This document shows positions 26,259-54,309 of a stretch of 64,000 nt of DNA, piece by piece. The notes beneath the pieces were generated by a model. That model was not told the DNA's origin, did not search any database, and saw only the letters and a list, made by a program, of their open reading frames with translations. Source of the stretch: Persicaria tinctoria (taxonomy: Eukaryota; Streptophyta; Magnoliopsida; Caryophyllales; Polygonaceae); the NCBI GenBank assembly GCA_037127255.1, contig JBANSL010000013.1, forward strand, positions 68,530,188 to 68,594,187, in the 5' to 3' direction. A program made the position numbers and the translations under genes. Position 1 is the stretch's first letter, and every line of letters begins with the position of its first letter.

Positions 26259-26652
26259 GGATTAATTTTGAAATTGATAATTATAGGAAAACGAAGACAC
26301 TTTAAAAACAAGAGCTCAAGAATCCCAAGCTATGTCGTTTGAGATTTATTGACCACATATTGACCTAAGTTCATGTACTCTATTTACCAAGCCTAACACT
26401 CTAAATAGCTATGTCGTTTGAGATTTTTTTGGACATACCTTAGTCCCTAATTGGTCATCCTCCATCCAGGATTGGCAGAATCTAGACTTTCATATGTATT
26501 TAAGGTCATAATTTAAAAATAAAAAACATATTAAAAAGTAAAAGAACATCTATTTTTATAGTATAAAATCATGTAAAAAAATATTTTATATAATGTTTTA
26601 CGACTTAAAAAGAATATTAAAAAATAAAAGAACATCTATTTTTAAATAGAGG
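26259..26652. other. AT-rich spacer
   Basis: Two copies of CTATGTCGTTTGAGATT (26331 and 26408) and two of AAAAGAACATCTATTTTTA (about 26538 and 26628) are visible. No gene or element was recognised. It ends at the AGAGG target duplication (26648-26652) of the large gypsy element. Confidence 0.5.
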
Positions 26653-31400: not shown

Positions 31401-33008
31401 GTTAACGCGGATGGATGTGGGGTAGGAATAGTGCTAATCTCCCCCGGGGGGGACCAATTCTGTTTTGCTTACCAGTTGAATTTCCAAGCCACCAACAATG
31501 AGGCAGAATATGAAGCCTTGATAGCGGAGCTGGAGTTAGCCCTGACCCGCGGGGCTCGGGCTGTCACCGTGTACACTGATTCCAAGATTGTCGCAAAGCA
31601 GACAGAAGGAGAGTATGAGGCCAAGATGGGATTGTTGCCAGACTACCTACGAAAGGTAAACACTATGAGAAAAGCCTTTTTGCATTTCACCATAGAATCC
31701 ATCCCTAGAGAAGACAATGAACATGCCGATCTGCTGGCCCGAGTCGGAGCCGCCATGCCGTCAGGCGTGGAGGAGAAATTTGATTTCGAAAGGAAGGATC
31801 GGCGAAGGCTATTGCAAGAGGTTTACTTCGTCCAAACCGAGGGACCCGAAGACTGGCGGACACCGATTACTGAATATCTGGGAAGGGAAATCCTCCCGCC
31901 AGAGAGAATGGAGGCAAAAAAGTTAACAAGCAGGGCGGCCCGATTCGTAATCTGCAAAGGAAAGTTATATAAAAAGGGTTTTAACTTCCCAAATCTGTTG
32001 TGTGTATCCAGCCGGGAAGGGTATACCATTGCGAAAGAGTTGCATGCGAGGATCTGTGCTCATCACCAAGGATAGAGGGCCCTAACCTCCAAAGTTTTGA
32101 GGTTGGGGTACTACTAGCCCACTATCAGAACAGACGTACAAAGCTTTGTGCACAGTTGCGAAGCGTGTCAAAAGCATGGAAATGTGAAGAATGTACCCGC
32201 CGAACCGCTTCAGGGCATCTATGGGGCCTGCCCTTTCGCCTTGGTGGACTATTTCACCAAATGGGTAGAAGCGGAAGCAATGGGTTTGATCACCGCGCAG
32301 AAGGTTAGAAAGTTCTTGTGGAAGAACCTAGTGTGCCGATTTGGAGTCCCCGAAGCCATCATCACGGACCATGGAAATCAGTTCAACTGTGAAAACATTA
32401 GAGATTTTTGTGAGGGCCTCGGGATAAAATTGAAATTCTTCTCAATGGCTCACCCACAAACAAATGGACAGGCAGAGACTACGAACCGTCAGATCTTGGA
32501 AGGTATCAAGAAGAAGCTAGGGAAAACCAGCAGAGGCCGGTGGGCGGAACTCCTCCCACTAGTGCTCTGGTCATACCGGACATCACCAAAAACTCCAACC
32601 AGGGAGTCGCCATTTGCCTTGGTGTTCGGGACAGATGCAGTCGTCCCGGTCGAACGATTGATCCCCTCTGCATGGGTTTTAGCCTACGAATCCAAGGCCA
32701 ATAATGAGGCTCTAGAAGATGAGATGCATCTTCGAGAAGAGACACGGATGATCGTAGAAATCAAGGCTCGAGAGTACAAAAGGAAAACACAAAAACACAG
32801 AGACCAACATCTCCAAGAGCGACGATTTGAAAAGGGAGACCTGGTCCTCCATTTGGCCCTCGCAGGTGGAAAGTTGGACACCAAATGGGAAGGGCTATAT
32901 GTAGTTGTTGAATGTATCCATGTCGGAACATACAAGTTACAAACCCCCCGAGGGTGTTGCTCTTCGGAAGACATGGAATGCGAAAACTTGAAGAAGTACT
33001 ATGTGTAA
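28434..33008 (+). pseudogene. Tat-type gag end and pol (protease, RT, two RNase H domains, integrase)
   Basis: One frame with three stops (31053-31055, 32073-32075, 32115-32117). Gag ends in Arg/Gly-rich sequence. Protease has DTGSSVDIL (about 29358). Reverse transcriptase has MCVDFSYLNKACPKDSYPLP and catalytic YVDDIVV (about 30559). The first RNase H spans the TAA at 31053, where Gln is expected. A second, archaeal-type RNase H (NNEAEYEALIAELELA, about 31495; YTDSKIVAKQ, about 31575) is the hallmark of the Tat lineage. Integrase has the zinc region (CEACQKHGN), Asp in TDHGNQF and Glu in QTNGQAETTNRQ. The segment carrying the first catalytic Asp (about 25 residues between YGACPFA and VDYFTKWVEAE, near 32240) is deleted. 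Confidence 0.9.
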
Positions 33009-33102: not shown

Positions 33103-33682
33103 GTCTCATGACGCTGGAGCTTGCTCCGCGTCGGACATCTGGTGGACGCATTGGGCTCCCAGATTATACTTAGTCTCATGACGCTGGAGCTTGCTCTGCG
33201 TCGGACATCTGGTGGACGCATTGGGCTCCCAGATTATACTTAGTCCCATGACGCTGGAGCTTACTCCGCGTCGGATATCTGGTGGACGCATTGGGCTCCC
33301 AGATTATATTTAGTCCCATGACGTTGGAGCTTGCTCCGCGTCGAACATCTGGTGGACGCATTGGGCTCCCAGATTATACTTAGTCCCATGACGCCGAAGC
33401 TTGCTCTGCATCGGACATCTGGTGGACGCATTGGGCTCCCAGATTATACTTAGTCCCATGACGCTGGAGCTTACTCCGCGTCGGACATCTGGTGGACGCA
33501 TTGGGCTCCTAGATTATACTTAGTCCCATGACGCCGGAGCTTGCTCCGCGTCGGACATCTAGTGGACGCATTGGGCTCCCAGATTATACTTAGTCTCATG
33601 ACGCCGGAGCTTGCTCCGCGTCGGACATCTGGTGGACGCATTAGGCTCCCAGATTATACTTAGTCCCATGATGCTGGAGCTT
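33103..33682 (+). repeat. 70-bp tandem array, first part (about 8.3 units)
   Basis: The unit of 70 bp starts GTCTCATGACGCTGGAGCTT and ends AGATTATACTTA. Units differ by only a few bases. The array lies just after the pol stop and is cut by the nested element at 33683. It resumes at 40093 with the same phase, since AGCTT is the target duplication. Frames through it on the minus strand are repeat artefacts: 70 is not a multiple of 3. Confidence 0.95.
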
Positions 33683-34889
33683 TGATAGACGGTTTTTAGT
33701 CGCCTAAACCGTATCAAAGTAAATTCGAACCTACCTAACTAATGTAGTGTGGTAAGCACGGGTAGATCCCACAGAGAATCAAGTTATTCCTAACTTAAGT
33801 CTATTTACCAATTAAGAGAAAATAGGGGGTTTTGGTGTGATGAGATTAAGAAAGAAAATAACTAAATATATGAACAAGTTAACGGAGATAACTATTAAAG
33901 GAATAGTTTCATCTACAAATATCCATTTTAGGTTGGTTAGTTGATCCTTGATTCTTCTTCAAGATATCTTTTCATCCTATTATTGTTCCTGTCCTGATCT
34001 TGTGTAAATTACTAGTCCTACGAGTCCTAGTAACCCTTGCTAATTAGATAACCCTTACACGGTCAAGATTTAACCTAATAGTAGCATTAAGATTAAGGAT
34101 TAACCAGGATACATGCAACACCAAGCTACGAGTTAGCATTTAACATATAATTGATTCTCTACACACCAGTTTAGTCCTACGAGTCCTAAAAAGGCATGAT
34201 TGCTACTTTGGATTAAGGTTCGCTACGAGGAATTTACAAAATCCTAGCAATAATCTCAACTAGTTGTACGGACTAGAAGAAATCAACAATAATCGCAAAA
34301 GAATCAATACGAATTAATATGAATAGAAAAAGAATAGAAATATCACAACTTTATCAAACCAAAGCTTCAATCCATAGACGAAACGGAAGAGTTTTGCTCT
34401 CCATAAAAGTAAGACAAAAACAATTAGGGTTAAGAGTAAAACTAAAGTCGGCCACGGTTCTGTCTACGTGAACACGGCTTACGGTTTCTGCCGTATGAAT
34501 TCAATATATAGTATGAACGTATGACATGTAAGTATATTGCAAAACCTAATCTATATAATATTATTATATCTAATAGTCTATCAATAATACGAAGCAACAC
34601 TTCAATTAGTTCCAAGTCGTGGGCCCGTGTGGCTTCTTCCGCCTCTTCCGTATGAATTCACATCATCAGTCCATTCTCTTATACTTTGAGTAGCTTGGCC
34701 CAATCTTCTATTAATTATGAGTAACTCGACCCTATCTCGTGTAATTCGCTCCAAAATGCCTGAAATCAATAAAACACGGGTGTAGACTCCGAAAACTAAA
34801 TAATAACAAATTAACTATAAAATATGTAAAATATGCATGAAAATGACCTAATCTAATATGAAATTATACGACTAAAATAGACCCTATCA
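33683..34889 (-). repeat. 3' LTR of the nested Athila-like element
   Basis: 1207 bp, nearly identical to 38886-40092. On the minus strand the bases before it (AAGCATGAGGTAGTT, from about 34904) are the polypurine-like border usual for this type. Confidence 0.9.
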
Positions 34890-37082
34890 AACTACCTCAT
34901 GCTTAGACTTTTACTTGTCCCCAAGCAAACTAACTCAAAACAAAGACAAACTCAAAAAGAAAGATAAAGACCCAACGAAATTTCTATGAATGATCACTCA
35001 TCAGTATGGTTATCATGACTATAGGAGTATTTATTACGTTAATATCAAAATAGTTATGACACTATGAGACCCACATCAAACCCTTCATACTCATTGCTTT
35101 AAACTCAAATTAGGTTTAGAGGATGCTTGCATTCAGAATGTATTGAGCAATCAAAATCATTAAGTACACTTAAAAATCGTCATAAACACCCATAGATTAC
35201 TAGACATTTTCTACTTCGGAATTTCAATTAAGCTCATATTATTTCTTTTTTTTCTAAACACTTTTTCTTCCTCTTTGCGTGAATTTTATTCTCCACAAAC
35301 AGGATTGGTTACTAACCGTATTTTTTTTCAATTCCTATAATTGTCGAGTGAATTTTATTCTCCTCAACATTGGTTTATTGATGATTCTTTTCACTCGAGT
35401 GAATTTTATCCTCCTCGAGCGGTGTAAGTGAATTTTATCCTCCTTACACTCATCAACCCAACATATATCAACGCACATCAAAAATCACATCAAATATATA
35501 ACCGAATTTACTAGTGTTTTTCATCAGGGGTTTAGACATACAATATAAATCAAATAAATTTTTTAAAGATTACTCTAAACTGAACATCCAACCAATAATC
35601 AAGTTATAACTAAAGCTCATAATCCAGATTATCTATGGAAATCCCACAAGTGTCTTTATTCAATTAAAATTCCATTTTATTAACTTTTAAGCCATGAAAA
35701 ACCATACATCATCATCGAGGTCATACCAATCATAGAAACAAATTCCTATAACACAACTAAAATGAAAAACTAACAAATAAAAAATGATGACTCAATATAA
35801 CTTATATGAGACCATGCAATATTATCAAATACCTACAATGCAACCTATAATGTAATGCATAACAAAAATTGAAAAAGAAATTAAAAAAAAAAAAAAGCTA
35901 ACACATATATGATTATATGAATATGGAGCTACACTTGAATTCCCCCACCCCATGCTTAAAATTTTACTTTGTCCTCAAAGTAAAGAGAAAGAATAAAATA
36001 GGTAGAGGAAACTCACAATGTAAATCAGGCATTCAGAAACAAGCTTGAAGCAAATCTGAAGGGAGGAAGAAAGCAAGTGATCGATGTTCTTGGAAAAATT
36101 CAGCAGCAAATCCCACCAGAAAAAGGCAACAACAACTTCTTACAGCTTGGAAGCAAAACATAACTGTCCAAAACAAGCACACCAAACCACAAAGCAAGAC
36201 AGCAGCAAGACCGAAGCAAAGCAATGACAAAGCAAGACTACATCGGTTCTCAACAGAAATTTCAGCAACAATCTTGAAAACAATTTGCACTTAAAGACCC
36301 TCTCGGAGCATTCTCCTCGCGATAATGCCTGGCCAAAACACAGCACATAGAAACCATACCCAAACAAGTGTATCCCAACTATCCAAGAACACAAACAACC
36401 AAACAAAGAAGCAAATCCCGGTACTCACACCCATCCATATTTTACAAAGTAAATTCATGAAAATTGAAATGGACACAGAGGGCATGAGACAAGCACGAAA
36501 ACATAATAAAAAATTAAAATAAAAAATAAACATGGACCCAATCACATCTCATGATCAAACAACCTAGTCAACAGTAAAGCTTTATCCAGTAGCCGGAACC
36601 TCAAATAATTATGTGGAAATCAACCAAAATTACTAGCCAAATTGATCAAGTTCAACTATAAAATTCACTTAATTTTCACACTCAGTTCAACATAAAGGAA
36701 AAGGCTACCAAAGACAACACAGCAGCACAAATGTGTTGATGATCAAACAGACTCAAGGACAGCATGATAGGAAACCCACATTGAAGTCCAGCAGATTGAT
36801 CAAAAAACTTACAGCAGATCCAAAATGGAAAGCATTAGCTACTGTGCAACCAAAAATCAAAGCAACAACCAATCTATAATTTAAGAGGATCCCAATCAAC
36901 CCAACGTTAATAGTAAATCCCAACCAATTGACAGTAGATTTCACTCAATCTCGACAAGGAATGGGCAATTCAGATCAGCCCGTGGATATGAAGCCACAAG
37001 AATCGAAAATAAAAGATAAACAATTTCAACAAAATCAATTCATCATCCTCTTCCATAAATCACGAGAATCTCAAGGATGACA
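34890..37082 (-). other. Non-coding interior of the nested Athila-like element
   Basis: AT-rich sequence without a convincing gene. Four close copies of GTGAATTTTAT(T/C)CTCC lie at 35279, 35348, 35400 and 35428. Minus-strand frames at 36033-36545 are rich in Cys, Phe and Leu and look like chance. I see no transposon domain. Confidence 0.5.
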
Positions 37083-37640
37083 TACCTGCACTTACTGGTT
37101 GCGGAATTGACTAGCAGTAAAATTTCCGAGAGGGGCTGGCCTGGGCAATTCTGGCTGGCCGAGACTTGCTGGAGAAGTCCAGCGAATATGGGAGATCGCC
37201 AGTGGTCAGGTGGCAAGGATCTGGTTTCAGATTGCCGGAGTTGTGGTCGGCCAGGCAGAAGAAGAGGCGGCGGTGAGAAGATACGACCATGAGAGAGAAG
37301 AAGGCGGCCCTTGGGTTAGGGTTCCGTCGAGACAAGGGCGAAGGGGACAGTGGTGGCGACCGGCGGTCTCAGGGGTGGCGAGCGGTGGAGAACAGGGACC
37401 GAGAGAGATTGGTGGTCGGAAACGGGGCATGGTGGAGTGTGTTGGGGAAGGCGATGTCGGAGATGGGGCTGGCCCGACGACGGTCGAGGTGAACAACAGC
37501 GGTGAGAGAGATTGGGTGGTTTCTGGTGGGCAGAGGTTCGGCCGGTGATGGTAGGCAAAGAGGGCCAGCGGGATGAGGAAGAAGGCGCGGCAGTGGGGAG
37601 CGAATAAGGGCGAGGAAAGAAAAGGCTCGACCTTTCTTTT
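37083..37640 (-). other. GC-rich block with donor-like splice site, possibly captured host DNA
   Basis: Unlike its AT-rich surroundings, this block is GC-rich and open on several frames. On the minus strand it encodes Pro/Ser/Thr-rich low-complexity peptide. It ends at a strong donor-like CAGGTATGT (minus strand, about 37090). That composition resembles a host 5' exon or promoter plus first exon taken up by the element. No known domain was recognised, so the source is unknown. Confidence 0.35.
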
Positions 37641-37982
37641 CTGTTTTTTTTTTGTTTTATTTTTTTTTGTTTTGTTTTGTACGAAAATAAAAAAAATAAT
37701 AAAAAAAATATATATAAAAATTAATCCGAATAAAAAAAGAAAAAGGAAAACTCTAACTTATGATTTTTATGTGATTAACATGACTATTCTTTATCCCAAT
37801 TCCTTACCTATCAGACATCGTCAAGGCCCTCAACAACCTATCATAATCCTGTGCACACATCTTAAACAGGACATCATACCCCAATAATAAATTGAAACTA
37901 TATAATATAACACTTAAATACCTTTTCAATTTGTCAAAGAGTTGAGCATGACTCTCTGATGGATGAATATAATACCACCAGT

Positions 37983-38759
37983 TCAGTCCGGTGGTTTATC
38001 AAAATAGCAATTAAAATGATCAACATAATCACTATTACCTTCCAAATTGTAAAGATTTACCTTTATTACCTCTTGAGCATCGGATGGAGTAGTAGACACA
38101 ACACATGAAACCTCATCCGTCGACTCATGAGATTCCATGTCATGAAGCACTGGACCATCTTCTCCATCGGCAAAGAAACTATCGTTTTCTATGGAAAATT
38201 CCTCCTCGTTATGAAACCAACTAGGAGGGAATGAATTAAGCACAATAACTTCGGCAGGATCTTTCATTCTTGCATCCTTCACTGTCTCAGGAGATGACGG
38301 AATGGGTTGGCTTTCTTTATCAACTTGAGGGGTGACCATCTGCTCTGCTATTATCTCACTTAATGTTTGAGTAAGTTGGCTAATTTGTTCCCCCAAATTT
38401 TTGATCCTCTCATCATTCTCCTGCACCGCTTGTGTAAGGGCTTGGATTGCATCATCTAGGTATATGACAGAGTCCTCCATTGGTGGAGATATCGGAGTCA
38501 AGGATTCTTCCTGTGCAATTTGGTAATCCATATAATAGAAAAAATCCCACAACCCCGACAAACCTAACCGTGCTAGGCCTCCGTTACTCATGTGCTCAGC
38601 AAGCGCTCGTGTCTCAGCAGTCATCCTGTCAATTATGCAAACAATCATATCTCGGATGCTGTCTTGATAGCCACGTGACTTACGAATGTCAACACATCTC
38701 TGCAATCTAGTAAGATATTGGTGAAAGTTCTGACCTTGAAACTGCAATAACCTCAGCAT
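37983..38759 (-). CDS. 258-residue ORF of the nested Athila-like element, function unknown
   Basis: The ATG at 38759 lies about 105 bp after the primer site, the position where gag would begin in an autonomous element. The protein starts MLRLLQFQGQNFHQYLTRL. It contains a probable coiled coil at about residues 105-140 (DDAIQALTQAVQENDER, then LGEQISQLTQTLSE). The C-terminal half is acidic and ends YFDKPPD. I do not recognise it as gag: there is no zinc knuckle and no gag core. The frame is intact, which in an otherwise empty element suggests it was kept until recently. It could be a highly diverged gag-like RNA packaging protein or an element-specific protein. Confidence 0.55.
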   Translation of the reverse strand: MLRLLQFQGQNFHQYLTRLQRCVDIRKSRGYQDSIRDMIVCIIDRMTAETRALAEHMSNGGLARLGLSGLWDFFYYMDYQIAQEESLTPISPPMEDSVIYLDDAIQALTQAVQENDERIKNLGEQISQLTQTLSEIIAEQMVTPQVDKESQPIPSSPETVKDARMKDPAEVIVLNSFPPSWFHNEEEFSIENDSFFADGEDGPVLHDMESHESTDEVSCVVSTTPSDAQEVIKVNLYNLEGNSDYVDHFNCYFDKPPD

Positions 38760-38865
38760 CTCAAAAGTCAGTAGCAAGGGTGTTATGAACCGTAAGATAG
38801 GTTAACAACAAATTAGATATATACAAAATTGATAAACACACAAAACAAATAAATAAACTTTGATT

Positions 38866-38884
38866 CCCCGGCAACGGCGCCAAT
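38866..38884 (-). promoter_or_regulatory. Primer-binding site of the nested Athila-like element
   Basis: TTGGCGCCGTTGCCGGGGA on the minus strand beside the LTR at 38886. It is the typical Athila primer site and is identical to that at 57944-57962. Confidence 0.85.
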
Positions 38885-38885
38885 T

Positions 38886-40092
38886 TGATAGACGGTTTTT
38901 AGTCGCCTAAACCGTATCAAAGTAAATTCGAACCTACCTAACTAATGTAATGTGGTAAGCATGAGTCGATCCCACAGAGAATCAAGTTATTCCTAAGTTA
39001 AGTCTATTTACAAATTAAGAGAAAGTAGGGGGTTTCGGTGTGATGAGATTAAGAAAGAAAATAACTAAATATATGAACAAGTTAACGGAGATAACAATTA
39101 AAGGAATAGTTTCATCTACAAATATCCACTTTAGGTTGGTTAGTTGATCCTTGATTTTTCTTCAAGATCTCTTTTCATCCTATTATTGTTCATGTCCTGA
39201 TCTTGTGTAAATTACTAGTCCTACGAGTCCTAGTAACCCTTACTAATTAGATAACCCTAACACGGTCAAGATTTAACCTAATAGTAGCATTAAGATTAAG
39301 GATTAACCAGGATACATGCAACACCAAGCTACAAGTCAGCATTTAACATATAATTGATTCTCTACACACCGGTTTAGTCCTACGAGTCCTAAAAAGGCAT
39401 GATTGCTACTATGGATTAAGATTCGCTACGAGGAATCTACAAAATCCTAGCAATAATCTCAACTAGTTGTACGGACTAAAAGAAATCAACAATAATCGCA
39501 AAAGAATCAATACGAATTAATAGGAATAGAACAAGAATAGAAATCTCACAACTTTATCAAACCAAAACTTCAATTCATAGACGAAACGGAAAAGTTTAGC
39601 TCTCCATAATAGTAAGACAAAAACAATTAGGGTTAAGAGTAAAACTAAAGTAGGCCACGGTTCTGTCTACGTGAACACAGCTTACGGTTTCTGCCGTATG
39701 AATTCAATATATAGTATGAACGTATGACATGTAAGTATATTGCAAAACCTAATCTATATAATATTATTATATCTAATAGTCTATCAATAATACGAAGCAA
39801 CACTTCAATTAGTTCCAAGTCGTGTGCCCGTGTGGCTTCTTCCGCCTCTTCCGTATGAATTCACATCATCAGCCCATTCTCGTATACTTTGAGTAGCTCG
39901 GCCCAATCTTCCATTCATTATGAGTAACTCGACCCTATCTCATATAATTCGCTCCAAAATGCCTGAAATCAATGAAACACGGGTGTAGACTCCGAAAACT
40001 AAATAATAACAAATTAACTATAAAATATGTAAAATTTGCATGAAAATGACCTAATCTAGTATGCAATTATGCGACTAAAATAGACCCTATCA
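38886..40092 (-). repeat. 5' LTR of the nested Athila-like element
   Basis: 1207-bp LTR next to the primer site. The AGCTT target duplication follows at 40093-40097, where the 70-bp array resumes. Confidence 0.9.
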
Positions 40093-40480
40093 AGCTTGCT
40101 CCGCGTCGGACATCTGGTGGACGCATTGGGCTCCCAAATTATACTTAGTCCCATGACGCTGGAACTTGCTCCGCGTCGGACATCTGGTGGACGCATTGGG
40201 CTCCCAGATTATACTTAGTCCCATGACGCCGGAGCTTGCTCCGCGCCGGACATCTGGTGGACGCATCGGGCTCCCAGATTATACTTAGTCCCATGACGCT
40301 GGAGTTTGCTCTGCGTCGGACAACTGGTGGACGTATTGGGCTCGCAGATTATACTTAGTCCCATGACGCCGGAGCTTGCTCCGCGTTGGACATCTGGTGG
40401 ACGCATTGGACTCCCAGATTATACTTAGTCCCATGACGCTAGAGCTTGATCCGCGTCGAACATTCGGTGGGCACATTGGG
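40093..40480 (+). repeat. 70-bp tandem array, second part (about 5.5 units)
   Basis: This continues the array of 33103-33682 after the nested insertion, giving about 14 units in all. The last unit is diverged and the array ends near 40480. Confidence 0.95.
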
Positions 40481-40676: not shown

Positions 40677-41191
40677 TCACGGAGTGTCCCGGGGTCGATC
40701 CGAAACCAAACGAGTCCGGTCCGCACATAGACGAGTTCCATTGGGTAAAGGACCCTCACGATGAGGTTCTCGCCACTCAGCATCAACTTCATTACCATCC
40801 GCGGATAAAATTTGAACCTCGAACCGTGCGTTCCCCTTGTGCAGAAAGGTGATGGCGGACCCTATGTCGACGCCATGCGTACAAGCAAAATGGTTCCACC
40901 CGCAGCCCAAGAAGGGCACCCGGTAATCGCCACGGTACATCGTCACGGGGAAGTCCCGGATGATCCTCGACGATAGCAGAACACGCCCAGGGAGATCCTG
41001 GCCATATTCAATTTCGAAACGGGAAGGCAGCCGCTGTTCAAACACATTAACCAAATGAATGAAGACAAGTTCGCTCGCGAAATATCAACAAGTACGCTAA
41101 AACCACGATTAGGACGTACCAAGCGGTGCATCTGCTCCGGGAAGTCCAGAGAACGGAAAAAGGCCCAGGTCGTTTGATTTGAGGACGCCAT
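40677..41191 (-). CDS. B3-domain protein ORF 1, two exons, antisense in the Tat element
   Basis: The minus-strand ATG at 41191 starts MASSNQTTWAFFRSLDFPEQ. A GT-AG intron of 86 bp (41119-41034, starting GTACGT and ending GAACAG) joins exon 1 (24 codons) to exon 2 in phase. The joint gives the MHRL/RLPSRF step usual near the start of B3 domains. Exon 2 carries the rest: LPGRVLLSSRI, a strand with FPVTMYRGDYRVPF, then GWNHFACTHGVDIGSAITF and FEVQIL. The order and the GW-F-GS-F-FEV pattern fit plant B3 DNA-binding domains of the REM type. The tail is Arg/Pro-rich. Total length is 142 residues. It is one of four B3 ORFs clustered here, and the only one on the minus strand. The frame is intact; expression is not known. 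Confidence 0.65.
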
Positions 41192-41525
41192 TTTAGATAG
41201 ACCCTATTTGTGAAGATAGAAGGCTCGGGGAGCCCCGATTTTAAAGGGGTCCTCGGGGGTCACAGGCCACACAGGAGCCACCTCAAAAACCTGAGTCACT
41301 GAAAAGGGACCCGGACGAAACCCGAAAATGGTCAAGATACCACTGCCGTAAGCCAGGCATGACGGACAGATGTACCGCAGAAGGCGCACCTCGGGAAGAT
41401 CGAAGCCTGCCACCACGAAAAGAAGCGACAAGAAGAAAAAAAAAAAAGCCCGTGATCTCCTTTGAACCATCGAAATTCAAAAAGAAATAGAAGAGAAAAA
41501 GGAAAAGATCTAACCTTTCTCTCAA

Positions 41526-41936
41526 ATGGCGATAAGATCGAGGGTAAGACTTTATCCCTTGAAGTATAAAACACGCTTAAATAACCTGGGTGATGGAACG
41601 TCCCTTATCGGCAAGATGAATCCAGAGGCACCACCAAGGACATTCTGTCGAGTCATCATGAGGGAGGAACAGCTTCGGGCACTCCGGCTCCCACTCGTAT
41701 ATGTCATAATAGACGAGGACGCCTGCACCCAAGCCAGGCTTTGGTCCAGTTCCAATCGAGAGCACGAGGTGAGAGTAGAGAGGGATAACGATGGCCTCTT
41801 CTGGCTAACTCAAGGGTGGCACGATTTCATTCAAGCAAATCGCTTCAACGTAGGATCGGCTCTGATTTTCACCTACATGGGGGACTCCATCTTTGAAGTC
41901 AACATGATCAATCCAGAAAGCGAAGTAAATGTGTGA
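41526..41936 (+). CDS. B3-domain protein ORF 2, intronless
   Basis: The open frame has ATGs at 41526 and 41616. The second (MNPEAPPRTFCRVIMREEQ) aligns best with the starts of the sister ORFs, giving 106 residues. The B3-like pattern is clear: TFCRVIMREEQLRALRLP at the first strand, EVRVERDNDGLFWLTQGW in the middle, then HDFIQANRFNVGSALIF and FEVNMI. It is the best-preserved plus-strand copy, with no stop. A GTTACATCTAATAATTAATA stretch with AATAAAAG follows about 110 bp after the stop and may serve as a poly(A) signal. The site of the intron in B3 ORF 1 has no intron here. It lies 335 bp from ORF 1, head to head. Confidence 0.65.
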   Translation: MAIRSRVRLYPLKYKTRLNNLGDGTSLIGKMNPEAPPRTFCRVIMREEQLRALRLPLVYVIIDEDACTQARLWSSSNREHEVRVERDNDGLFWLTQGWHDFIQANRFNVGSALIFTYMGDSIFEVNMINPESEVNV

Positions 41937-42460
41937 ACAAAATGCTTTTAAATTTCTATCTCGTGTATCATGTTCCTCTCTTTAAGTTTAATGCACCGGG
42001 TTCAAAGGGGTCGAAGCTTTAAAAGGCTATGTTCCTGTTACATCTAATAATTAATAAAAGATCCCCTTTTTTGGGCATGATCGAGGGACACGACAACCTG
42101 ATTACATAGCAAAAGAAACCCATGAATGCCAACAGCCCGTGATTACTGGAATGTCCGTGGGCGGCCGGAAACCACCCCCCTGAACTACTAAAGCGTGGCG
42201 AGAAGTTTTATACGAGGTTTCCGTGGTCGATCCAGACCCAAGCTACAAAGACCATGCTACGTTTCGCCCCTGACCATTAAGTGAAAGACCATTCCTTGTC
42301 TATTATGAGGGACATTTCTTTCTTACATCCCCGATCTCAATTAAGTCGAAGGGTCGTTCCGAACCACGGACAGAGATGGTACCTTTCGGGGCCTCACATA
42401 TAACGATCTTTTTCCCTTCAGAGACACGGGAAGAATACACTAAATCTCCCTAAAAAACAC

Positions 42461-42625
42461 ATGGATCCCAGTCGACTAGAAAAAGAGAACGTGGGTATTA
42501 AGGGACTTCCAGGTATAATAAGGATCACTAGCCTCAAAGACCACTTGGCCGCAGACGACCCTAGTGAATGGAGCACCATAAAAAGAGGGGAAGAAAACAT
42601 CATAGTCAGACCTCTTAAAACCTAA
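42461..42625 (+). CDS. Short ORF (54 residues), possible B3 remnant
   Basis: ATG at 42461, 54 codons. The peptide (GLPGIIRITSLKDHL, then EWSTIKRGEENIIV) faintly resembles the middle of a B3 domain (LP-v-l, then W-V). It lacks the GW-F and FEV parts. It sits just upstream of B3 ORF 3. It may be a degraded fifth copy or a chance frame. Confidence 0.25.
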   Translation: MDPSRLEKENVGIKGLPGIIRITSLKDHLAADDPSEWSTIKRGEENIIVRPLKT

Positions 42626-42652
42626 AAACTTCTTCCTCGAAGGAACTCCAAT

Positions 42653-43063
42653 ATGAGCTCCGAAAACACTCGTACATTCTACCGTTTCGTCACCAAGGAG
42701 GAGCACTTACAGACATTACCGATACCCCGGATATTCGAGCAGTTAGAGGGCGAGACACTCCGGCTCGTTTATCTATAGTCGACCACTTGCCAGGATTTCG
42801 AGGTTGATGTTGAGAAGGACGCGGACGGGCTCTACTGGTTCACCGACGGGTGCCCAGACTTCGTTTTCTCTAACCGAATAGTCATGGGATGCTCGCTTCT
42901 CTTTGTTTACGAAGGGGAGTCCCACTTTGAGGTATACGTGTCCTACCCGGATCCAACCCCCGACTACCAAAAGAAGCTCGGCCCAATAGACATGGGCCCT
43001 CCTAAATCCAAGGCCTACCAGAAGCCTCCACGAGCCCACAAGAACTCCGGGGATCGAAAGTGA
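42653..43063 (+). pseudogene. B3-domain protein ORF 3, one in-frame stop
   Basis: The ATG at 42653 (MSSENTRTFYRFVTKEEHLQ) opens a 136-codon frame interrupted once by TAG at 42776-42778. Its pattern matches ORF 2: FYRFVTKEEHLQTLPIP, FEVDVEKDADGLYWFTDGC, DFVFSNRIVMGCSLLF, FEVYV. The Trp of the usual GW is Cys here. The C-terminal tail is basic (KPPRAHKNSGDRK). About 45 bp after the stop is AACTAATAAAAG, a possible poly(A) signal like that after ORF 2. The single stop probably replaced Gln by a C to T change, but a sense codon cannot be proven. Confidence 0.6.
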
Positions 43064-43312
43064 AAAAGGTGAATGCGTCGCAAGTTCCGATGTACCTTGT
43101 AACTAATAAAAGTTTTTTCTTATCTATAGAAATAAAGGAGTCATCATTCTCTAGACACTAGTTTTAAGTCAGAAAAGCTGTTGTGTGTTCATTAACTGAT
43201 TTTCCTTCCCTAGAGACCTAGGGAAGGAACGATTCCGAAAGAAAACAAAACAGCGGCCACATTTAATGAAATAATTAGACGAATAGGGAAACAATGGCCA
43301 TATCAGCCCCTC

Positions 43313-43320
43313 TATAAAAG
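43313..43320 (+). promoter_or_regulatory. TATA box upstream of B3 ORF 4
   Basis: TATAAAAG in CCCCTCTATAAAAGCC, 72 bp before the ATG of B3 ORF 4. It is the best promoter-like motif in the B3 cluster and suggests that these genes were transcribed on their own rather than from the LTR (inference). Confidence 0.45.
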
Positions 43321-43391
43321 CCAAAAACCAGAGAAACCCCGAGAAACACCTTCTATCAGAAAAAATACCAAAAACTCCAAAAAGTATCAAT

Positions 43392-43819
43392 ATGGCAGCA
43401 GGCGGTGGCCGCTCAAGAGATTTCCTCCGCTGGATTCAAAACGCTTTTTTCCTGCAAAGAACGGTTATGTACCTCAAACCTCTCCATTAATCCTCAGATT
43501 CTTATTCGCGACTAATAATCCCCTCCAAACAACTATAGCCTCTCCCCGCGTTCTTCGAAGAGGAGTATGGGTTACAAGGAGTCGAAAGAATAACCCTAAC
43601 CAACGGGCCCGGGAGGAGGGCATACGCGTCCTAATAGAGAGAGACGAAGTAGGAGTGCTCTGGCTCACCTAGGGATGGAGCGCATTCACAAGGTCAAGAA
43701 ACGTCCACGTGGGCGGGGTCATCATATTCAAGTACCTGGGCAGCGCGCGTTTCAAACCTAGCTACGTGCCTTCGGGAGAAAACTCTTCTAAAGGTGAAGG
43801 CAACGATGATACTTCCTGA
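43392..43819 (+). pseudogene. B3-domain protein ORF 4, broken
   Basis: The ATG at 43392 starts MAAGGGRSRDFLRWIQNAFF. After about 24 codons an intron-like 75-bp stretch (GT at 43464, AG at 43538) precedes LPAFFEEEYGLQGVERITL. This is the same place as the intron of ORF 1. A one-base shift near the GGGAGGAGG run (about 43610) leads to VLIERDEVGVLWLT, then TAG at 43670-43672 where ORF 2 has Gln (WLTQGW). GWSAFTRSRNVHVGGVIIF and the end at 43819 follow. It is the most decayed copy. The TATA box at 43313 belongs to it. Confidence 0.5.
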
Positions 43820-44195: not shown

Positions 44196-44696
44196 CTAAA
44201 GAGGAACATCTGCGGTCTCCGCGGATTTCTTCACGCTCTGATGAATCCCGGCTTTCATCCCAATGTAGAAACAGTCTCTGTAACGATTTTGGATGAACTC
44301 TTGACCAGCCTCATCATTCAACCACTCAAGAACAGCGCTCTTCATGAATTCCAGGCCATTAGGAGTCTTCGTCCAATCGTCCACTAACTTGGTATGATTA
44401 TGTGGAACATCCAACCAAGATAAAACGATATCACCGTCTGTTCGGGACTGATATCGCTCTAACTCTATTTTACGACGGTTGGCTTCCAGGACCGCGTTAC
44501 TTCTCGCTTCATTTGCCGCTAACAACTGGCCTTCGAAATCCTTTTTTTGGGCCTCAGAGTTAGCTTGCAGTGTGGTTAGGGCCTGTTGGGACGACTCAAG
44601 CTGAGCTCGCAGCCCTTCCATATCCTCAGCCAACTTCCTCCTTTTTGCCCTCTCAGTGGATATGATCTCATCTTTTTCCTCCATCCGCGAACGAAG

Positions 44697-45770
44697 TGAT
44701 GTCATCCTCAAGCGAAAGAAGAAGGCTCCACCTTGGGAGTCGTTGAACAAACGGCGTTAATTATTTATATTTCTTATTTTTTATATATATTCTATTTTTA
44801 GTAACTCCTATGTTAGTTGGAGACTAATTATAGAATTGCTTATTTTTAGTATTTCTTGGTTAGATTAAATAAGATGGTTAGGATTTTAGATTAAGTTTTA
44901 TCTTCTAGGTTTATTTATCTTTAGAATTAAAATTCTATCTTTATCAACCTAAATTCTATCTTGCACGGTAGAATTGGTTCTTAGGTTTTCTATTTAAACA
45001 TTGTAGTTCTATTGAATTAAAGGAGATTGAATTAGAATTGAGAAACCCCTTTATGGATTAAAGGGTTCTCGATTATCAATCCCTAAAACCTTTGTGTTCT
45101 AGGCACTACCACCGTCACCAATCCTTTGTTCTACTTCATCTTCATCACCGTCACCCTCGTGCAACAACAAACCCAAACACATTCATATTCCCGCACCGTC
45201 ACAACCAAGAAGGTGCTCAGTTGGCTCGGCGTCGCGTCCTAGTCCTGGTGCTAGGCGCTCGTGCACGCCCTCGCAGTCGCCTTCGCTCGCACCCTCCCTA
45301 CAAGCGACGGTGTCCCGCGGCTTCGGCTTCACACGGCATCTTCGGCTCCGCGTGCTCGCTCCCTGCGAGGCTTCTTCGGCATCGCCCTCGTCGTCGATCA
45401 CCGTCGCACACCAGCGCCCTGAGGAGCCTACCTCCTGCGCTCTCGTACTCGTGTGCCCAGCAAACTCGGAGCCGGCCTAGCGAGTTCCCGCACCAGCGCT
45501 TCCTTCGCTTCCTCGTCTATCTTTGCTGTTACTTCATTAGCTTAGACTTAGTTAATTTATTTCATTCAACCGATATTTCATTAGTTTAATTTTCTTAAGT
45601 TAAGAAATATTGTTTAATTAGTTTTAATTTAGTTTAGTTATTCTTCTGTTGCTTTATTTAGTCGGCTCATTAGTTGAATTCAATTGTTATCGAGAAGAAA
45701 TTCAAAGAGCTTAAGTAAGATCGTTCTTTTAGTTTAGCAATTGGCCGGTCTAGCCAATTGCTATACATCA
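44697..45770 (+). repeat. 5' LTR of the nested non-autonomous element
   Basis: 1074 bp, with a GC-rich 3' half (45090-45500) and AT-rich flanks. It ends CTATACATCA before the primer site. Confidence 0.9.
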
Positions 45771-45833
45771 ATTGGTATTCAGAGACTGGTTATGCTACGC
45801 TCTTTGTTTCTTTGATGTTACTGATGTTTTGAT

Positions 45834-46988
45834 TTGATGACTTGGGAAATCTGGGGAGGCAACTGGGATGATGATCCCGATCCATGGGCTGCACAACAAC
45901 GACGCCGGCGAGAGTTGCAGAGACGAACTTTGCAACAACAAGCTTTAGAGCGACAACAAGAGGCTCAAAGGCATCACCTTTGGCTTCAAAGGCAAGAAGA
46001 GACTCATCGACAACAACAATAACTCCTTGAGCGTCAACGTCAAGCCGCAATTGAGGAGGAGAAACGACAACAACAACGTCGCATCCGTCAGATTTGGCTT
46101 CTCCAACAACGAGAAGTTGAGGAGGAACGTCGCCGAGAGGAGGAACGACGCCTAGAGGAGAAAGAACGCCGATATTGGAAGGCTTGGTATGCAGACGTAT
46201 TTGCTTGCCACATTCCAGGTTTTCCTCCACTTCCCACACCATCTGCTGAGGTTGTTATTGCTCCCGCGAACGAGGAGGTGGTGGATTCTGCGACCAACGC
46301 CACTGCCCAAGAGGAGGTTGAAATCGCTGTCCAGAAAACAGCACAGCGCGACGATTTTGTTTCGCAGATTCCCGTTGACTCCGACCTCGGAATTGAGTCA
46401 ACTCAGTCTTGTTGCGAAGCTGACTCGACGAGCTTTCTAACGGTGGGTCACACGCTGCATGACTCCCCCGGAAAGACCTCCGAAACTGCTCTGAAAGTGG
46501 ACTGCAATGCTGCGCCAAATGTGGTAGTTGCTTCTGACAACAACGATGAGGACGTTGGGAACACTTCTCTTGAGTTAGCTATTGTATCTCTTGAGAATGT
46601 TCCTAATGTTGAGACTTCTGAAGTTCATAGGGTTATTGAGCCTAATGATATTGTTCCTCTTGATTGCTCAATGCTCTCTATGATAGGTTTTGTTTTTTAG
46701 GTTCCTTTGCCTCAAATTCTGCTGGCGCCATCTCAAGTTGATTTTCAAGGAATTTACTTTTTGGTGGTTGCTCCTTCCTCTTTGATCATCAACGACTCAA
46801 TTCGGGGACGAATCGAAGATAAGGAGGGGAGAATGTTGCGGGTCAAGATGACCTTCTGTGGGTCAAACAACGATCTTGATCCAGGCGACGACTCGAGGAC
46901 GAGTCGATTTCAATTGGAGGAGAATGATGTCATCCTCAAGCGAAAGAAGAAGGCTCCACCTTGGGAGTCGTTGATGAAACGGCGTTAA
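45834..46988 (+). pseudogene. Single ORF of the nested element: Gln/Arg/Glu-rich protein running into the 3' LTR
   Basis: One frame spans almost the whole interior and the first 64 bases of the right LTR, with two stops: TAA 46020-46022 in a CAA run and TAG 46698-46700. The ATG used is at 45837 (MTWEIWGGNWDDDPDPW); two in-frame bases precede it. The first third is a charged Q/R/E-rich helix (RRRRELQRRTLQQQALERQQ). The middle is acidic and low in structure. The end is DPGDDSRTSRFQLEENDV and a Lys/Arg tail ending KRR. No known domain was found. The charged helix and basic tail could bind RNA, as a gag substitute might, but that is inference. Both stops are one C to T step from Gln. Confidence 0.6.
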
Positions 46989-47996
46989 TTATTTATATTT
47001 CTTATTTTTTATATATATTCTATTTTTAGTAACTCATATGTTAGTTGGAGTCTAATTATAGAATTGCTTATTTTTAGTATTTCTTGGTTAGATTAAATAA
47101 GATGGTTAGGATTTTAGATTAAGTTTTATCTTCTAGGTTTATTTATCTTTAGGATTAAAATTCTATCTTTATCAACCTAAATTCTATCTTGCACGGTAGA
47201 ATTGGTTCTTAGGTTTTCTATTTAAACATAAGGAGATTGAATTAGAATTGAGAAACCCCTTTATGGATTAAAGGGTTGTCGATTATCAATCACAAAAGCC
47301 TTTGTGTTCTACGCACTACCACCGTCACCAATCCTTTGTTCTACTTCATCTTCATCACCTTCACCCTCGTGCAACAACAAACCAAAACACATTCATATTC
47401 CCGCACCATCACAACCAAGAAGGTGCTCGGTTGGCTCGGCGTCGCATCCTAGTCCTGGTGCTAGGTGCTCGCGCGCTCCGGCGCTCGTGCACGCCCTCGC
47501 ACTCGCCTTCGCTCGCACCCTCGCTACCAGGGACGATGTCCCGCGGCTTCGGCTTCACTCGACATCCTCGGCTCCGCGTGCTCGCTCCCTGCGAGGCTTC
47601 TTCGGTGTCTCCCTCGTCGTCGATCACCGTCGCACACCAGCGCCTTGAGGAGCCTGCCTCCTGCGCTCTCGTACTCGTGTGCCCAGCGAACTCGGAGCCG
47701 GCCTAGCGAGTTCCCGCACCGGCGCTTCCTTCGCTTCCTGGTCTATCTTTGTTGTTACTTCATTAGCTTAGACTTAGTTAATTTATTTCATTCAACCGAT
47801 ATTTCATTAGTTTAATTTTCTTAAGTTAAGAAATATTGTTTAATTAGTTTTAATTTAGTTTAGTTATTCTTCGTTTGCTTTATTTAGTCGGCTCATTAGT
47901 TGAATTCAATTGTTATCGAGAAGAAATTCAAAGAGCTTAAGCAAGATCGTTCTTTTAGTTTAGCAATTGGCCGGCCTAGCCAATTGCTATACATCA
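46925..47996 (+). repeat. 3' LTR of the nested non-autonomous element
   Basis: 1072 bp, followed by the CGAAG duplication. Its first 64 bases code for the C-terminus of the internal ORF. Confidence 0.9.
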
Positions 47997-50007
47997 CGAA
48001 GGGACTCGATTTCTTTCCTCGGTGTCTCTGCCTCCAATAGCCTTTCCTTCATCTGCTCCAGTTTCTCTTCCAGACCGCGAGCATGCTGGCCAAAGCGAAG
48101 ATAGCGACCCCAATCGCTGTGAGTAAAAACATGACCCTAGCAACAAATACACCGCTAGGTATAAGTAACAGACGCTCACCAACGAACAGACCAAGGAATC
48201 AGATAGATAAGAGATATAAAGCACAATTCACTTACCCAGTTGCACCAACGCTCTTGTTCGATCGTAAATTGCTCATCGGTAAGATGGTCCAAGTACCGTG
48301 ACTCCGCTTTCCCAAGTTCTGGAGGAAAAGCCAACTGGTCAAGAATGTCGGAGTCAAAACCGGGCATACTCTACGCGGGCCGACCATTGGCGTCCACATG
48401 GAAAACCGGCACATCCCAGCTCACACCTTCCCACGCCGGATAAGAACGCACTTTCTTTTTCTTCGGTGGCGTTTTTGAAGTCCCTGCCTCACCAGAAGAA
48501 GCAACTTGAGGAGCTGCAGGGGCAACTAGAGGAAGGGACTGGACTTCCGCGACTGGGGGAGAATCGATCAGGATAATGGAAGGCTCGGGCTCCTTCGGAG
48601 CGGCAGGGGAAGAAGAGGATACGACAACCGTTTTCTCTTTCACCACCTTCTTTCCTTTGGTTTTCGGGGCCGAAGTCTTGGGGCGTTTCAAGGCTCTCAT
48701 CACGTCGGTAGGGATTTTCCTTTTAGATGAAGAGGGGGGGCCAAGGACATCTTTGCAGCATCCACCATTGTTTTCAGCTCCGCGGCACCTGGAAAGGACC
48801 ACGAAGAAAACAAAAATGTTGAATCCATTTCGAGAGAATACCACGGATAAGACAAAAGCAAGGGCACCCCCGAAATTAACTACAACCTATGCGCGGATGA
48901 GGAAGACTCAAACCGACCATTTCCAGCCGCAAAGGGGAAACCATATCTTTCCATGAAGGTTTTGTTTCAACAACAAACTTCTGCTCAATCTTCTTAAGAC
49001 CGAAAATAGCTTATCTTTTCATCCGCGTATACAGACGTGGTTCTGTATGAAAGTTCATAATTTTATGCAGAGGATCTCCAACCAAGAACCACTTATGCCG
49101 CCACTCTGACTTACTGTTGTTACGGTCAACGATAGGGACACTGAGCTTAGCCTGGTAGAGGCTTTTGTGGATACCCCCATGACCCAAGGTAAGCATATTG
49201 CTCAAGAGTCCCAGAAAAAGGCTGAACCCCGATCTCTAGGCAGCGCATCACAAACGAAGTCAAGAAAAGCCAACTGTTCGGAACCAGCTGGGCGGGGCTC
49301 AAGCCACAAGCCTTCAAATAACGCTTAAACAGATTAGGTAAAGGGAGCCGAAACCCCTGAACAAAGCTCTCGATATACACCACCAGGTAACCGGGGTAGA
49401 CATCCAGGCTCCCTCCCCCTTCCGCTGGAAGACACAGTGCAACTCCCTCTCACCAAGGGAAGACACGGGCGATCACATTCAAATCCTCCAAAGTCGTGAA
49501 TGTTCCTCCACCGCGGCTCTGAGCATTCGGCGGAACAATAGGAATCATCCGCTGAGGAAGAACCACAGGTATCGGGCCCGCGGCAGAAGGCTGAAAATCC
49601 CCTTTGAATGGACAAGTGGCCAACACTTTCTCGCTATACAGGACCGGACAAAAGTCCCCCAACACAGACGACGAGCGGCGTTCCTTCGGTAGGAAGGCGA
49701 AGCCAGAGGGTACGTCAGTACGAGAATCCCACTCTTTGTAGGAGTGCTGAGATTCGGGCGACTCCAGTATTGAGTCTGACCCTGATGACGAAACCCCGTC
49801 ACCCGACCGCGAGGACACGGAGTCAACAGGGGAAGAGTTTTCATCGCGCACGCGACCCGAGGAAGTATAAAAGGAGGGATCTTCAAGATCTTTGGGTTGC
49901 CGAAAAGTGACGTCCTCGGGAACCTCTATCCCACCCATCAAGAGTTTTCCCCAGGAACGTCTGATCAAAGCTTGTACACTACCAGAACTACTTTGGGAGG
50001 CCGACAT

Positions 50008-50508: not shown

Positions 50509-51364
50509 TGATGACGCCCGAAAGATATCGAAATTAAGAAAACAATTAAAGAGGGCTCAAGAGGCTGACAGAAGTAAAATACAAGAAACAAACACAACAA
50601 CCGACGGTCCGCGGACAAGAATTGCATGCGCAAAAAGGACAAATGGCACACAAAAAGGACAGGTGGCACACATGCCCCCATCCAAGTGAAACTCCTCTCT
50701 GAAACACGTGGCGACCCTGCATCAACAAGTGGCCATAAGACAGGAACTTCCCACTCACCAGAGGAAGAGGACGGCGTACTATAAAAAGAAGAGAAGACGC
50801 TAAAAGATAGGGACTTTTTGGAAACAACAGAGAGGAGACGCTAGCTCCAGAGGGGAAAGAGAGGGAAATAGTCTCGCCAGGGCTCTACCTTTGACTTACC
50901 CATCCTTCACCCGTCCGCGGACATCTCAAGCTAAGGGAACGGTAGTCAATCCGAGACAGGTAGTCGGACATTAGTCTAAGGATCCAGGGAGCGCATAATA
51001 TTATTTTACCCTCGATCTCTATTGCAATGGACGGGCGTATCACTTTTACCATTGGGTCACTTGATGAACCCGAATAAGTAAAGATGCGAGTCTCTTCAAA
51101 AAGACTCGGCGGCACCGGTCGTGGGATCCTCATAGATTGTGAGGATCTCAAATAGTGGGTAAGACCGTCAATATTTCCTCTAGGGTAAAATGGCTCAGGT
51201 AAAGATCCTTTTTCCCTTTTTATTGCTCTGATCGGGCGATAGTTATGGGGGGAAGGGGGCTTCAGGTAAGTCCGTATTACCAACCTTCCATAAGAGGAAA
51301 TCTAGGGCATATCCCCCCATGGGGACGTGGGAGGCGATACACTTTTTCTTTTACGGCTTCGTCA
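50509..51364 (+). repeat. 3' LTR of the Tat-type element
   Basis: 856 bp, same ends as the 5' LTR. TATAAAAAG near 50781. AGAGG (51365-51369) follows. Confidence 0.9.
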
Positions 51365-51549
51365 AGAGGTAATACAATAATTCCCTTTTTTTTTATAACA
51401 ATACCTTGGTTTAAAAAAAAGAGTAGATATACGTATTACATTTTATTGGTTTATCTCTAGACAAACAAAATCAATATGTTCCTAGCCTAACATTCATCAT
51501 ATATATTATTTGATAATTTTGAAACCCGACCCCACTTAAAAATTACGAA

Positions 51550-53354: not shown

Positions 53355-53750
53355 ATCAAACATCTAAATATTCAAATTAATTAATAATTACTCCAGTCTC
53401 GATCATAAAGAAACGTTTAATTTGCAAAAAAAAAAAAGAAGATTTTTTTATGATGAGGAACCAATTTTCGGTGGTAAATTTCGAGCACGTGATTCACCCG
53501 ACAAGAGCCACGTACATTCGACTTGTGCCGATCAGCTTAATCCACTGATAGAAAGTAAGACAAATCTTAATTTTTCACCCAAAAAAAGATACGAAGGCAA
53601 CAATCGACCCAAAACACTTCTTACCACCCTCCTTACTCTAAATCACTAGACCACCCAAAATGGAGAAACGGACAAATTTAAGTAGACAAAGAGTAGTTAA
53701 AGTTGATTTTCATGCACTAGGAAAAGATCGAGGGAACTATATATCCACCC

Positions 53751-53760
53751 TATATATAAA
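53751..53760 (+). promoter_or_regulatory. TATA box of GRP3
   Basis: TATATATAAA about 120 bp before the ATG. The leader that follows is nearly the same as that of GRP1. Confidence 0.6.
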
Positions 53761-53880
53761 GCCTTCTTGGTCGACCCGCCACTTCATTCACGTACACAAC
53801 CACAAACAAGCTAGCTAGCTAGGCAAATCACTCAAAACAATATTTACTAATTTTATAAGAGGAATAATTAGAGTTACGTT

Positions 53881-54276
53881 ATGGAGAAAATGAAAACAAG
53901 TTTACTTGTTTTTATTCTGCTGGGCGCCCTTCTTTGCACCACCACCACCACTAGGGCAAGGATGCTAGCGGAGAGCCAAGCAACAACCGTTGGGTGCCAC
54001 TCCGACCACCAACGCCTTTTCCGCCATGCTAAGTTATTGGGTGTGGGAATTGGCGTTGGTGGGGGTGTGGGTGTTGGCGTTGGAGGAAGAGGTGGCCAGG
54101 GTGTTGGAGGAGGTGGAGGAGGAGGCGGTGGAGGTGGAGGTGGTAGTGGTGGTGGTGGTGGAGGAGGAGGAGGAGGTGGTGGTGGAGGCGGTGGCGGTGG
54201 TGGCGGCGGCGGGAGCGGGAGCGGGAGCGGGAGCGGGAGCGGCAGTGGCAGCGGCGGCGGTGTCAGTTTGCCTTGA
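53881..54276 (+). CDS. Glycine-rich secreted protein, paralogue 3 (GRP3)
   Basis: It encodes 131 residues from the ATG at 53881. The signal peptide (MEKMKTSLL, then VFILLGALLC), a Thr-rich stretch, ARMLAESQATT and the conserved RLFRHAKLLGVGIGVG come first. A glycine tract with a Gly-Ser end (alternating GS, then GGGVSLP) follows. It is an intact gene of the same family as GRP1 and GRP2 and most like GRP2 in its N-terminus and GRP1 in its leader. A cell-wall role is likely from composition and signal peptide only. It has a TATA box, 3' flank homology to GRP2, a LINE insertion in the upstream region and a MITE just downstream. Confidence 0.82.
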   Translation: MEKMKTSLLVFILLGALLCTTTTTRARMLAESQATTVGCHSDHQRLFRHAKLLGVGIGVGGGVGVGVGGRGGQGVGGGGGGGGGGGGGSGGGGGGGGGGGGGGGGGGGGGGSGSGSGSGSGSGSGGGVSLP

Positions 54277-54309
54277 TCGATCAAATAAAAGGCGGACAAA
54301 CGTGTTGTC

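Follow-up and report, generated by a model that had tools for sequence, protein, structure and literature searches.

Do genes of the type that encode plant transcription factors belong to the retrotransposon in which they lie and, if so, where did they come from and what do they do there? The question was raised by a 64,000-nt stretch of Persicaria tinctoria DNA (the window), in which four open reading frames (ORFs), designated O1 to O4, with similarity to the B3 domain occupy positions 40677-43819 of a long terminal repeat (LTR) element. The genome-wide comparisons support the conclusion that the B3 genes are a standing accessory module of a large retrotransposon family. LTR elements with accessory ORFs are already known; in the variant described here such ORFs form a conserved four-gene B3 cluster. 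The cluster was apparently taken long ago from a regulator of the plant itself and kept by selection, which suggests that it controls the element or the host.

The four B3 genes

A preliminary description of the window had proposed four B3-like ORFs, one antisense and three sense. This was confirmed, as O1 and O2 scored above the curated cut-off of the Pfam B3 model (PF02362, 30.1 bits) and the proteins are similar to one another. The genes are arranged as follows:

40677-41191, minus strand: O1, whole gene, antisense (Pfam B3)
40677-41033, minus strand: O1 exon 2 with the B3 domain (Pfam B3, E = 7.9e-8)
41034-41119, minus strand: O1 putative intron, GTACGT...TTGAACAG, 86 nt, phase 0 (of 7 copies, all have GT and 6 have AG)
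41120-41191, minus strand: O1 exon 1, 24 codons (reading frame and alignment)
41616-41936, plus strand: O2, a 106-aa single B3 protein, intronless (Pfam B3, E = 3.3e-8)
42653-43063, plus strand: O3, B3 protein, intronless; one in-frame stop here, open in copies L039 and L040 (Pfam and copy comparison)
43392-43819, plus strand: O4, whole gene, two exons
43392-43463, plus strand: O4 exon 1, 24 codons (copy comparison)
43464-43538, plus strand: O4 putative intron, 75 nt, GT...CTAAT...CTATAG, phase 0 (length, GT, CTAAT and TAG shared by all 3 copies compared)
43539-43819, plus strand: O4 exon 2, C-terminal part of the B3 domain, broken in the window copy (Pfam B3, E = 0.015 for the window piece)

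The PF02362 match of O1 covers 40680-41084 on the minus strand (32.6 bits) and that of O2 41514-41933 on the plus strand (33.8 bits), the O2 proteins of copies L042 and L046 reaching 36.1 and 36.5 bits. Over part of the domain, blastp identity was 37-41% between O2 and O3, 40-47% between O2 and O4, and about 29-32% between O1 and either O2 or O4. In the window copy O2 is open and O1 is open save for the putative intron; O3 is damaged by an in-frame stop at 42776-42778, and O4 by a frame change and a stop. The motif CTATAAAAG ahead of O4 and AATAAA behind O2 and O3 were kept in all three copies compared, which suggests that the B3 genes have their own transcription units.

The solved structure nearest to O2 by sequence was At1g16640 (E = 0.0034); neither O1 nor the O3 of L040 found a significant match among solved structures. 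When proteins were searched, O2 and a profile recovered two short ENA proteins, P0001 and P0002, while the protein search with O1 and the scan of viral contigs with P0001 gave nothing useful. P0001 and P0002, from contigs of 624 and 614 bases, are close to O2 (75% identity over 77-99% of the query and 84% over 58%, respectively) and by eye resemble a second O2 subfamily described below.

Residence in a large retrotransposon family

The genome (1.68 Gb, 20 chromosomes) was searched with parts of the element. Only the best 136-150 candidates per search were scored, the window's own place included; hence copy numbers are lower bounds, stop-free counts are biased toward good copies, and a match missing from a best-scoring list does not equal absence. 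The lists held 150 of 6604 candidates for O2 (at least 74% identity), 150 of 5000 for O3 (at least 60%), 150 of 6079 for O1 (at least 75%), 136 of 17303 for the integrase, and 150 places for TRP28, the domain of an antisense ORF near the 3' end of the element.

The 150 O2 places covered all 20 chromosomes, and 132 of them were stop-free. Among these best-scoring places the genes kept a fixed layout: O2 and O3 lay at most 6 kb apart in 57 of 150, on the same strand in all 57; O2 and O1 at most 6 kb apart in 69 of 150, always on opposite strands (69/69); O1 and O3 at most 8 kb apart in 100 of 150, again on opposite strands without exception (100/100). O1, O2 or O3 was found within 12 kb of 96 of the 136 integrase places, 45 of them at ranks 1-50, 37 at ranks 51-100 and 14 at ranks 101-136. 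All these matches were downstream of the integrase, O1 in opposite orientation (83/83) and O2 and O3 in the same (43/43 and 61/61). Uniform random placement put O1 near a mean of 0.38 integrase places and at most 4 (300 runs), versus the 83 of 136 observed. A B3 match was also present within 12 kb of 109 of the 150 TRP28 places, with 208 of 212 matches in the usual orientation and four out of it.

Two further copies carry the B3 block collinear with the window. In L039 (C6), a single match (85.8% over 4619 columns) extends from the array of 70-bp repeats upstream of O1 through the entire block; the copy then continues into the antisense ORF and an LTR (3' side of the stretch compared), and its pol is partly lost (30863 to 32919 in window terms). 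Copy L040 (C2) carries the block from 40935 on, retaining O2, O3, O4 and the antisense ORF and flanked on each side by LTR sequence; the array, a part of O1 and the greater part of gag-pol are gone, its LTR and part of gag being joined directly to the equivalent of 40935.

These data bear on the simplest objection, that a host B3 cluster or a separate insertion became trapped between unrelated LTRs. This genome does have host B3 domains that lie close together in groups, but the same block in the same order in L039 and L040, with an LTR on the 3' side in the former and on both sides in the latter, and the fixed layout beside integrase and TRP28 matches rule this explanation out for practical purposes. 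Neither outcome that the preliminary description had named as damaging, no match to B3 or a block confined to this place with its own borders, was found. Its suggestion that B3 proteins are an accessory system of the family is upheld by the collinear copies and the fixed layout, together with the purifying selection presented below.

The paired chromosomes may be subgenomes or haplotypes, to judge from sizes and equal scores, so that some of the copies may be allelic.

Three observations on individual copies were made beside these counts. L040:1192-9801 (C2:83085600-83095400) is a possible non-autonomous derivative carrying B3 genes. The O2 unit is multiplied within single loci at a spacing of about 1.2 kb: C3:62788429-62792353 has four such units, C13:54303727-54306451 three. 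O1 is likewise multiplied, with three units at C11:48221442-48224244.

The remaining features of the element that carries the cluster are:

26653-27509, plus strand: 5' LTR (95.5% identity to 50509-51364; target duplication AGAGG at 26648-26652)
27611-28246, plus strand: gag region, first ORF (from the ORF list, named by position)
28434-33008, plus strand: pol in three ORFs, with reverse transcriptase (RT), RNase H, a second RNase H-like domain and integrase (Pfam)
33103-33682, no strand: 70-bp tandem array, first part (Tandem Repeats Finder, 8.3 copies, 93%)
33683-40092, no strand: nested LTR element 1, a later insertion from outside the family (1213-bp repeats, 96.2%; duplication AGCTT)
40093-40480, no strand: 70-bp tandem array, second part (Tandem Repeats Finder, 5.5 copies, 89%)
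44196-44696, minus strand: antisense ORF, 3' part, coiled-coil-like (weak Pfam matches below cut-off, several of them to coiled-coil families)
44697-47996, no strand: nested LTR element 2, a later insertion (93.6% repeats; duplication CGAAG; empty site in L039 and L040)
47997-50007, minus strand: antisense ORF with the TRP28 domain at 49150-49449, frames shifted (PF04195, Transposase_28)
50509-51364, plus strand: 3' LTR (AGAGG at 51365-51369)

The preliminary description had placed the cluster between the array and the antisense ORF of an element flanked by AGAGG. Position and duplication stood, and the picture is corrected in that nested element 1 splits the array and nested element 2 the antisense ORF. 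With both removed, the order is pol, array, B3 cluster, antisense TRP28 ORF and 3' LTR. The Kimura two-parameter distance of the outer LTR pair (0.046) exceeds those of the nested pairs (0.039 and 0.035), which agrees with the order of nesting. The Pfam matches in pol were, in order, PF00078 (1.9e-32), PF17917 (2e-12), PF13456 (2.1e-17) and PF00665 (1.8e-8); no protease model matched within 28434-33008, and the Pfam scan of the gag-region ORF (27611-28246) was without a match. TRP28 was identified at E = 1.3e-7 (32.2 bits versus a cut-off of 26.2).

With the Gypsy order of RT, RNase H and integrase, a second RNase H-like domain, and an antisense TRP28 ORF and a tandem array both located between pol and the 3' LTR, the outer element is by its domain content a Retand/Tat-type Ty3/gypsy element. 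Retand elements are described as having a long region between pol and the 3' LTR and an antisense TRP28 (PF04195) ORF, with a tandem array in about half of them, and no sense ORF of that region is reported to encode a known domain in the passages at hand of the survey (PMC11963269), which do not contain the term 'B3 domain'. The window element shares the long region, the array and the antisense ORF; unlike the Retand elements of the survey, it has three sense genes and one antisense gene encoding B3-like proteins.

The preliminary description knew of no retrotransposon with such a cluster, a statement to be qualified by one sentence on B3 domains in Gypsy consensuses of Aegilops tauschii, the only species reported among 121 genomes when no fewer than five consensuses per species were required (PMC9289625). 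The likeness, a B3 domain in plant Gypsy elements, is seen through that one sentence, and its passage is silent on lineage, number of B3 genes, introns and selection. It is the sole mention of B3 in LTR elements that we found in the open-licence literature, so other reports may exist; the passages on 'B3 domain' seen in PMC7602945, PMC12487180, PMC10031739 and PMC13394177 concern host genes or a VRN1 citation. The same source describes Tat-type elements of orchids with a 2-ODD (m6A demethylase) ORF (PMC9289625). These are alike in that a host-type domain is fixed in a Tat-related family and, as far as the passage tells, unlike in that their single extra ORF encodes an enzyme domain and there is no multigene cluster of DNA-binding proteins.

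Introns, tree and probable host origin

O1 and O4 carry their putative introns at the same place, one codon upstream of the hydrophobic-Pro pair that is conserved in B3 domains. The O1 intron is 86-87 nt long, its length varying by one, and the frames continue in phase 0 on both sides; the exception to its AG is L040, whose O1 is truncated (the introns of L049 and L052 were read from the alignment and then measured). In host B3 genes, AG stood directly before the same codon in phase 0 in 33 of 35 selected exons, host introns being read from the exon start and the preceding AG without transcripts; as a control, 2800 places were taken at random from these host loci, and 153 of them passed this test. 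O2 and O3 pass the position uninterrupted. Host B3 genes of this exon layout we take to be of the REM/VRN1 type. The element thus resembles these host factors in the B3 domain and in the codon and phase of the O1 and O4 introns, and differs from them in that its proteins are single-domain (about 106-139 aa for O2 and O3) and match the best host domains compared at 28-49% identity along a part of the domain only (35-74 residues).

When host and element domains were placed in one tree, O1-O4 formed a single clade (local support 0.85) beside host domains, with O2 and O3 as sisters (0.875) and O1 joining with 0.73. The shared intron position and the single clade point to one captured intron-bearing host gene that was duplicated, with one intron loss via RNA. 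They agree with the earlier proposal that the element captured and amplified a B3 gene, though the branches are long. The course of events that we infer would begin with the capture by the family of a genomic host B3 gene that had its intron and was probably of the REM/VRN1 type. The captured gene would then have given rise to four genes, clustered between the array and the antisense TRP28 ORF, one copy being inverted, and the ancestor of O2 and O3 would have lost its intron precisely, once, through a spliced intermediate. As O2 and O3 are sense to the genomic RNA, intron loss is expected on passage through spliced RNA. The O1 intron would have survived because an antisense intron cannot be spliced from genomic RNA, which would make it a clear example of orientation preserving an intron through retrotransposition. 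If the capture is correctly read, some annotated plant B3 genes may in turn be parts of mobile elements.

A dispersed '85-aa' class of B3 sequences was tried as a source of relatives and rejected: none of 16 loci (L009-L024, a mixed pick) matched the B3 block of the element by blastn. Only L023 among them was similar in protein to O2 and O3, and it reads as a host B3 gene. Most of thirteen of these dispersed places (L009-L021, e.g., C6:16908269 and C3:4142191) have an 85-aa frame; the class begins close to the REM-type intron border and may be a further B3 fragment that is mobile or duplicated.

Selection and the role of the B3 proteins

The ratio of nonsynonymous to synonymous substitutions (dN/dS) between copies, which the preliminary description had recommended, was obtained by the Nei-Gojobori method on short, non-independent pairs. 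Across 11 O2 copies (55 pairs), mean dS was 0.86 and mean dN 0.082, a ratio of 0.095; single pairs ranged from 0.04 to 0.61, the highest being the close pair of the window and L048. Neutral simulation of O2 at the divergence of five copies gave median ratios of about 0.75 with 1% values of 0.32-0.38, and a stop arose in 679-920 per 1000 runs. The observed amino-acid identity was above the neutral maximum in four of the five copies, the exception being L040 (neutral 92 versus 91 seen). Between the window and L039, dN/dS was 0.146 for O1 exon 2 (computed without its first 6 codons), 0.26 for O2, 0.27 for O3, 0.134 for part of RT and 0.17 for TRP28; between the window and L040 it was 0.20 for O2, 0.24 for O3 and 0.09 for TRP28. 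The pair L039-L040, with few changes, gave 0.15 for O2 and 0.34 for O3, and the O4 values (0.22-0.57) span a frame change and are unreliable. A second O2 subfamily (L045-L047) differed from the window by a dS of 1.35-1.57, where values above 1 are near saturation, and a dN of 0.12-0.14; this high dS with low dN indicates a gene long retained. Purifying selection is thus demonstrated for O2, with supporting pairs for O1 and O3.

A captured gene might also be copied along unused. The broken O3 and O4 of the window copy and the high ratio of the window-L048 pair would fit such a passive passenger, but the mean O2 ratio at that dS, the simulated neutral ratios with stops in 68-92% of runs, and the predominance of stop-free O2 places (even in a list biased to good copies) contradict it, and we regard it as very improbable.

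The role of extra ORFs between pol and the 3' LTR in Retand-type elements is described as still open in the passages seen (PMC11963269; PMC7264820). In the element studied here the DNA-binding domain of such ORFs can be recognised, their origin can be traced to the host and selection on them has been measured, and their role is directly testable by asking what DNA is bound.

B3 domains bind DNA, as established for ARF, LAV, RAV and REM proteins. Element-encoded DNA-binding proteins accompanied by an internal array recall VANC, a protein family different from B3, and self-regulation, by activation or anti-silencing, is by this analogy taken as the most likely role of the B3 proteins. The VANC anti-silencing proteins of VANDAL DNA transposons are sequence-specific, and their targets are often tandem repeats in related elements, according to the passages seen of PMC5735166. 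The likeness lies in an element-encoded protein paired with an internal array, where binding of B3 proteins to the element and its demethylation would be the analogous steps; VANC differs in that it comes from a DNA transposon. The B3 proteins would have been kept under purifying selection through many rounds of transposition, and they would act on the control DNA of the element (the 70-bp array, the LTR or the spacers between the B3 genes), leading to activation or counter-silencing.

Taken as a whole, the reading that a host B3 gene was captured, multiplied and selected, and that its proteins regulate the DNA of their own element, appears to us rather probable. If true, a retrotransposon that keeps host-derived transcription factors would represent a new way to answer host silencing. 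We put forward more tentatively a fuller form of it, in which four diverged B3 proteins from one host regulator would constitute the element's own transcription-factor system, recognising the array, the LTR and internal promoters, co-evolving with them, and switching on or shielding the family. Such a system would parallel VANC within retrotransposons but derive from a plant regulator, and the antisense position of one gene would serve to carry its intron through reverse transcription.

Several results weigh against self-regulation by a captured B3 family. The proposed search against PF02362 succeeded for O1 and O2 but left O3 (42779-43060, plus strand, E = 4.8e-4) and O4 (43673-43816, plus strand, E = 0.015) below the cut-off; the matches in L040 were stronger (O3 7.9e-6, 26.2 bits; O4 exon 2 3.2e-6, 27.5 bits) and both still below it. 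A structure model of O2 has seven strands at low confidence (pLDDT 64), and its best fold match, VRN1, was not significant (E = 0.15), so that the B3 fold rests on sequence. The tree was built on about 80 residues with branches longer than 1 for O1 and O4, whose grouping is possibly an artefact, so that it counts as moderate evidence. The sense intron of O4 persists, which is unexpected if genomic RNA is spliced and may need another reason, e.g., weak splicing or a separate transcript. Among the matches listed, 40 of the 136 integrase places and 41 of the 150 TRP28 places had no B3 match nearby. For the earlier suggestion that the proteins may bind the LTR or the array, the one motif common to both, CGGACATC, is a weak lead: of 2000 shuffles 63 did as well, and the LTRs of L040 have not kept it. 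The B3 target motifs CATGCA, TGTCTC, TGTCGG and CACCTG were all absent from the arrays.

The B3 proteins might instead act on host genes, mimicking REM/VRN1-type regulators and favouring activity or timing in reproductive cells, where insertions are heritable. REM genes are known from reproductive tissue, the tree places the element's proteins nearest to host B3 domains whose exon layout is REM-like, and At1g16640 was the best match to O2 among solved structures; the identity found to the best host domains does not make common targets apparent, and we consider this role unlikely, if far from negligible. Still less probable is a role after transcription, such as tethering the integration complex to chosen chromatin, packaging or RNA handling. 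It would suit genes that lie downstream of pol and are under selection, and the retention of O2 and O3 in the pol-less L040 would fit a function that acts in trans or is needed in cis. B3 is, however, the DNA-binding fold of transcription factors, and the pol ORFs scanned had no B3 match and hence no sign of fusion. Regulation of the element's own DNA remains the preferred interpretation.

Three further kinds of repeats were observed elsewhere in the window. A repeat is present in two copies, 11390-13572 and 24038-26220, with 68% identity over 2.2 kb, the second overlapping an ORF (25544-26245) that is RNase H-like by eye. Related low-complexity CCA/GGT-rich stretches, in both orientations and 72-80% alike in part, lie at 6515-7265, 20581-21087 and 53671-54304. 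Short arrays of 20-21-bp units, related by eye, were found at 56856-56914, 61742-61816 and 63723-63806.

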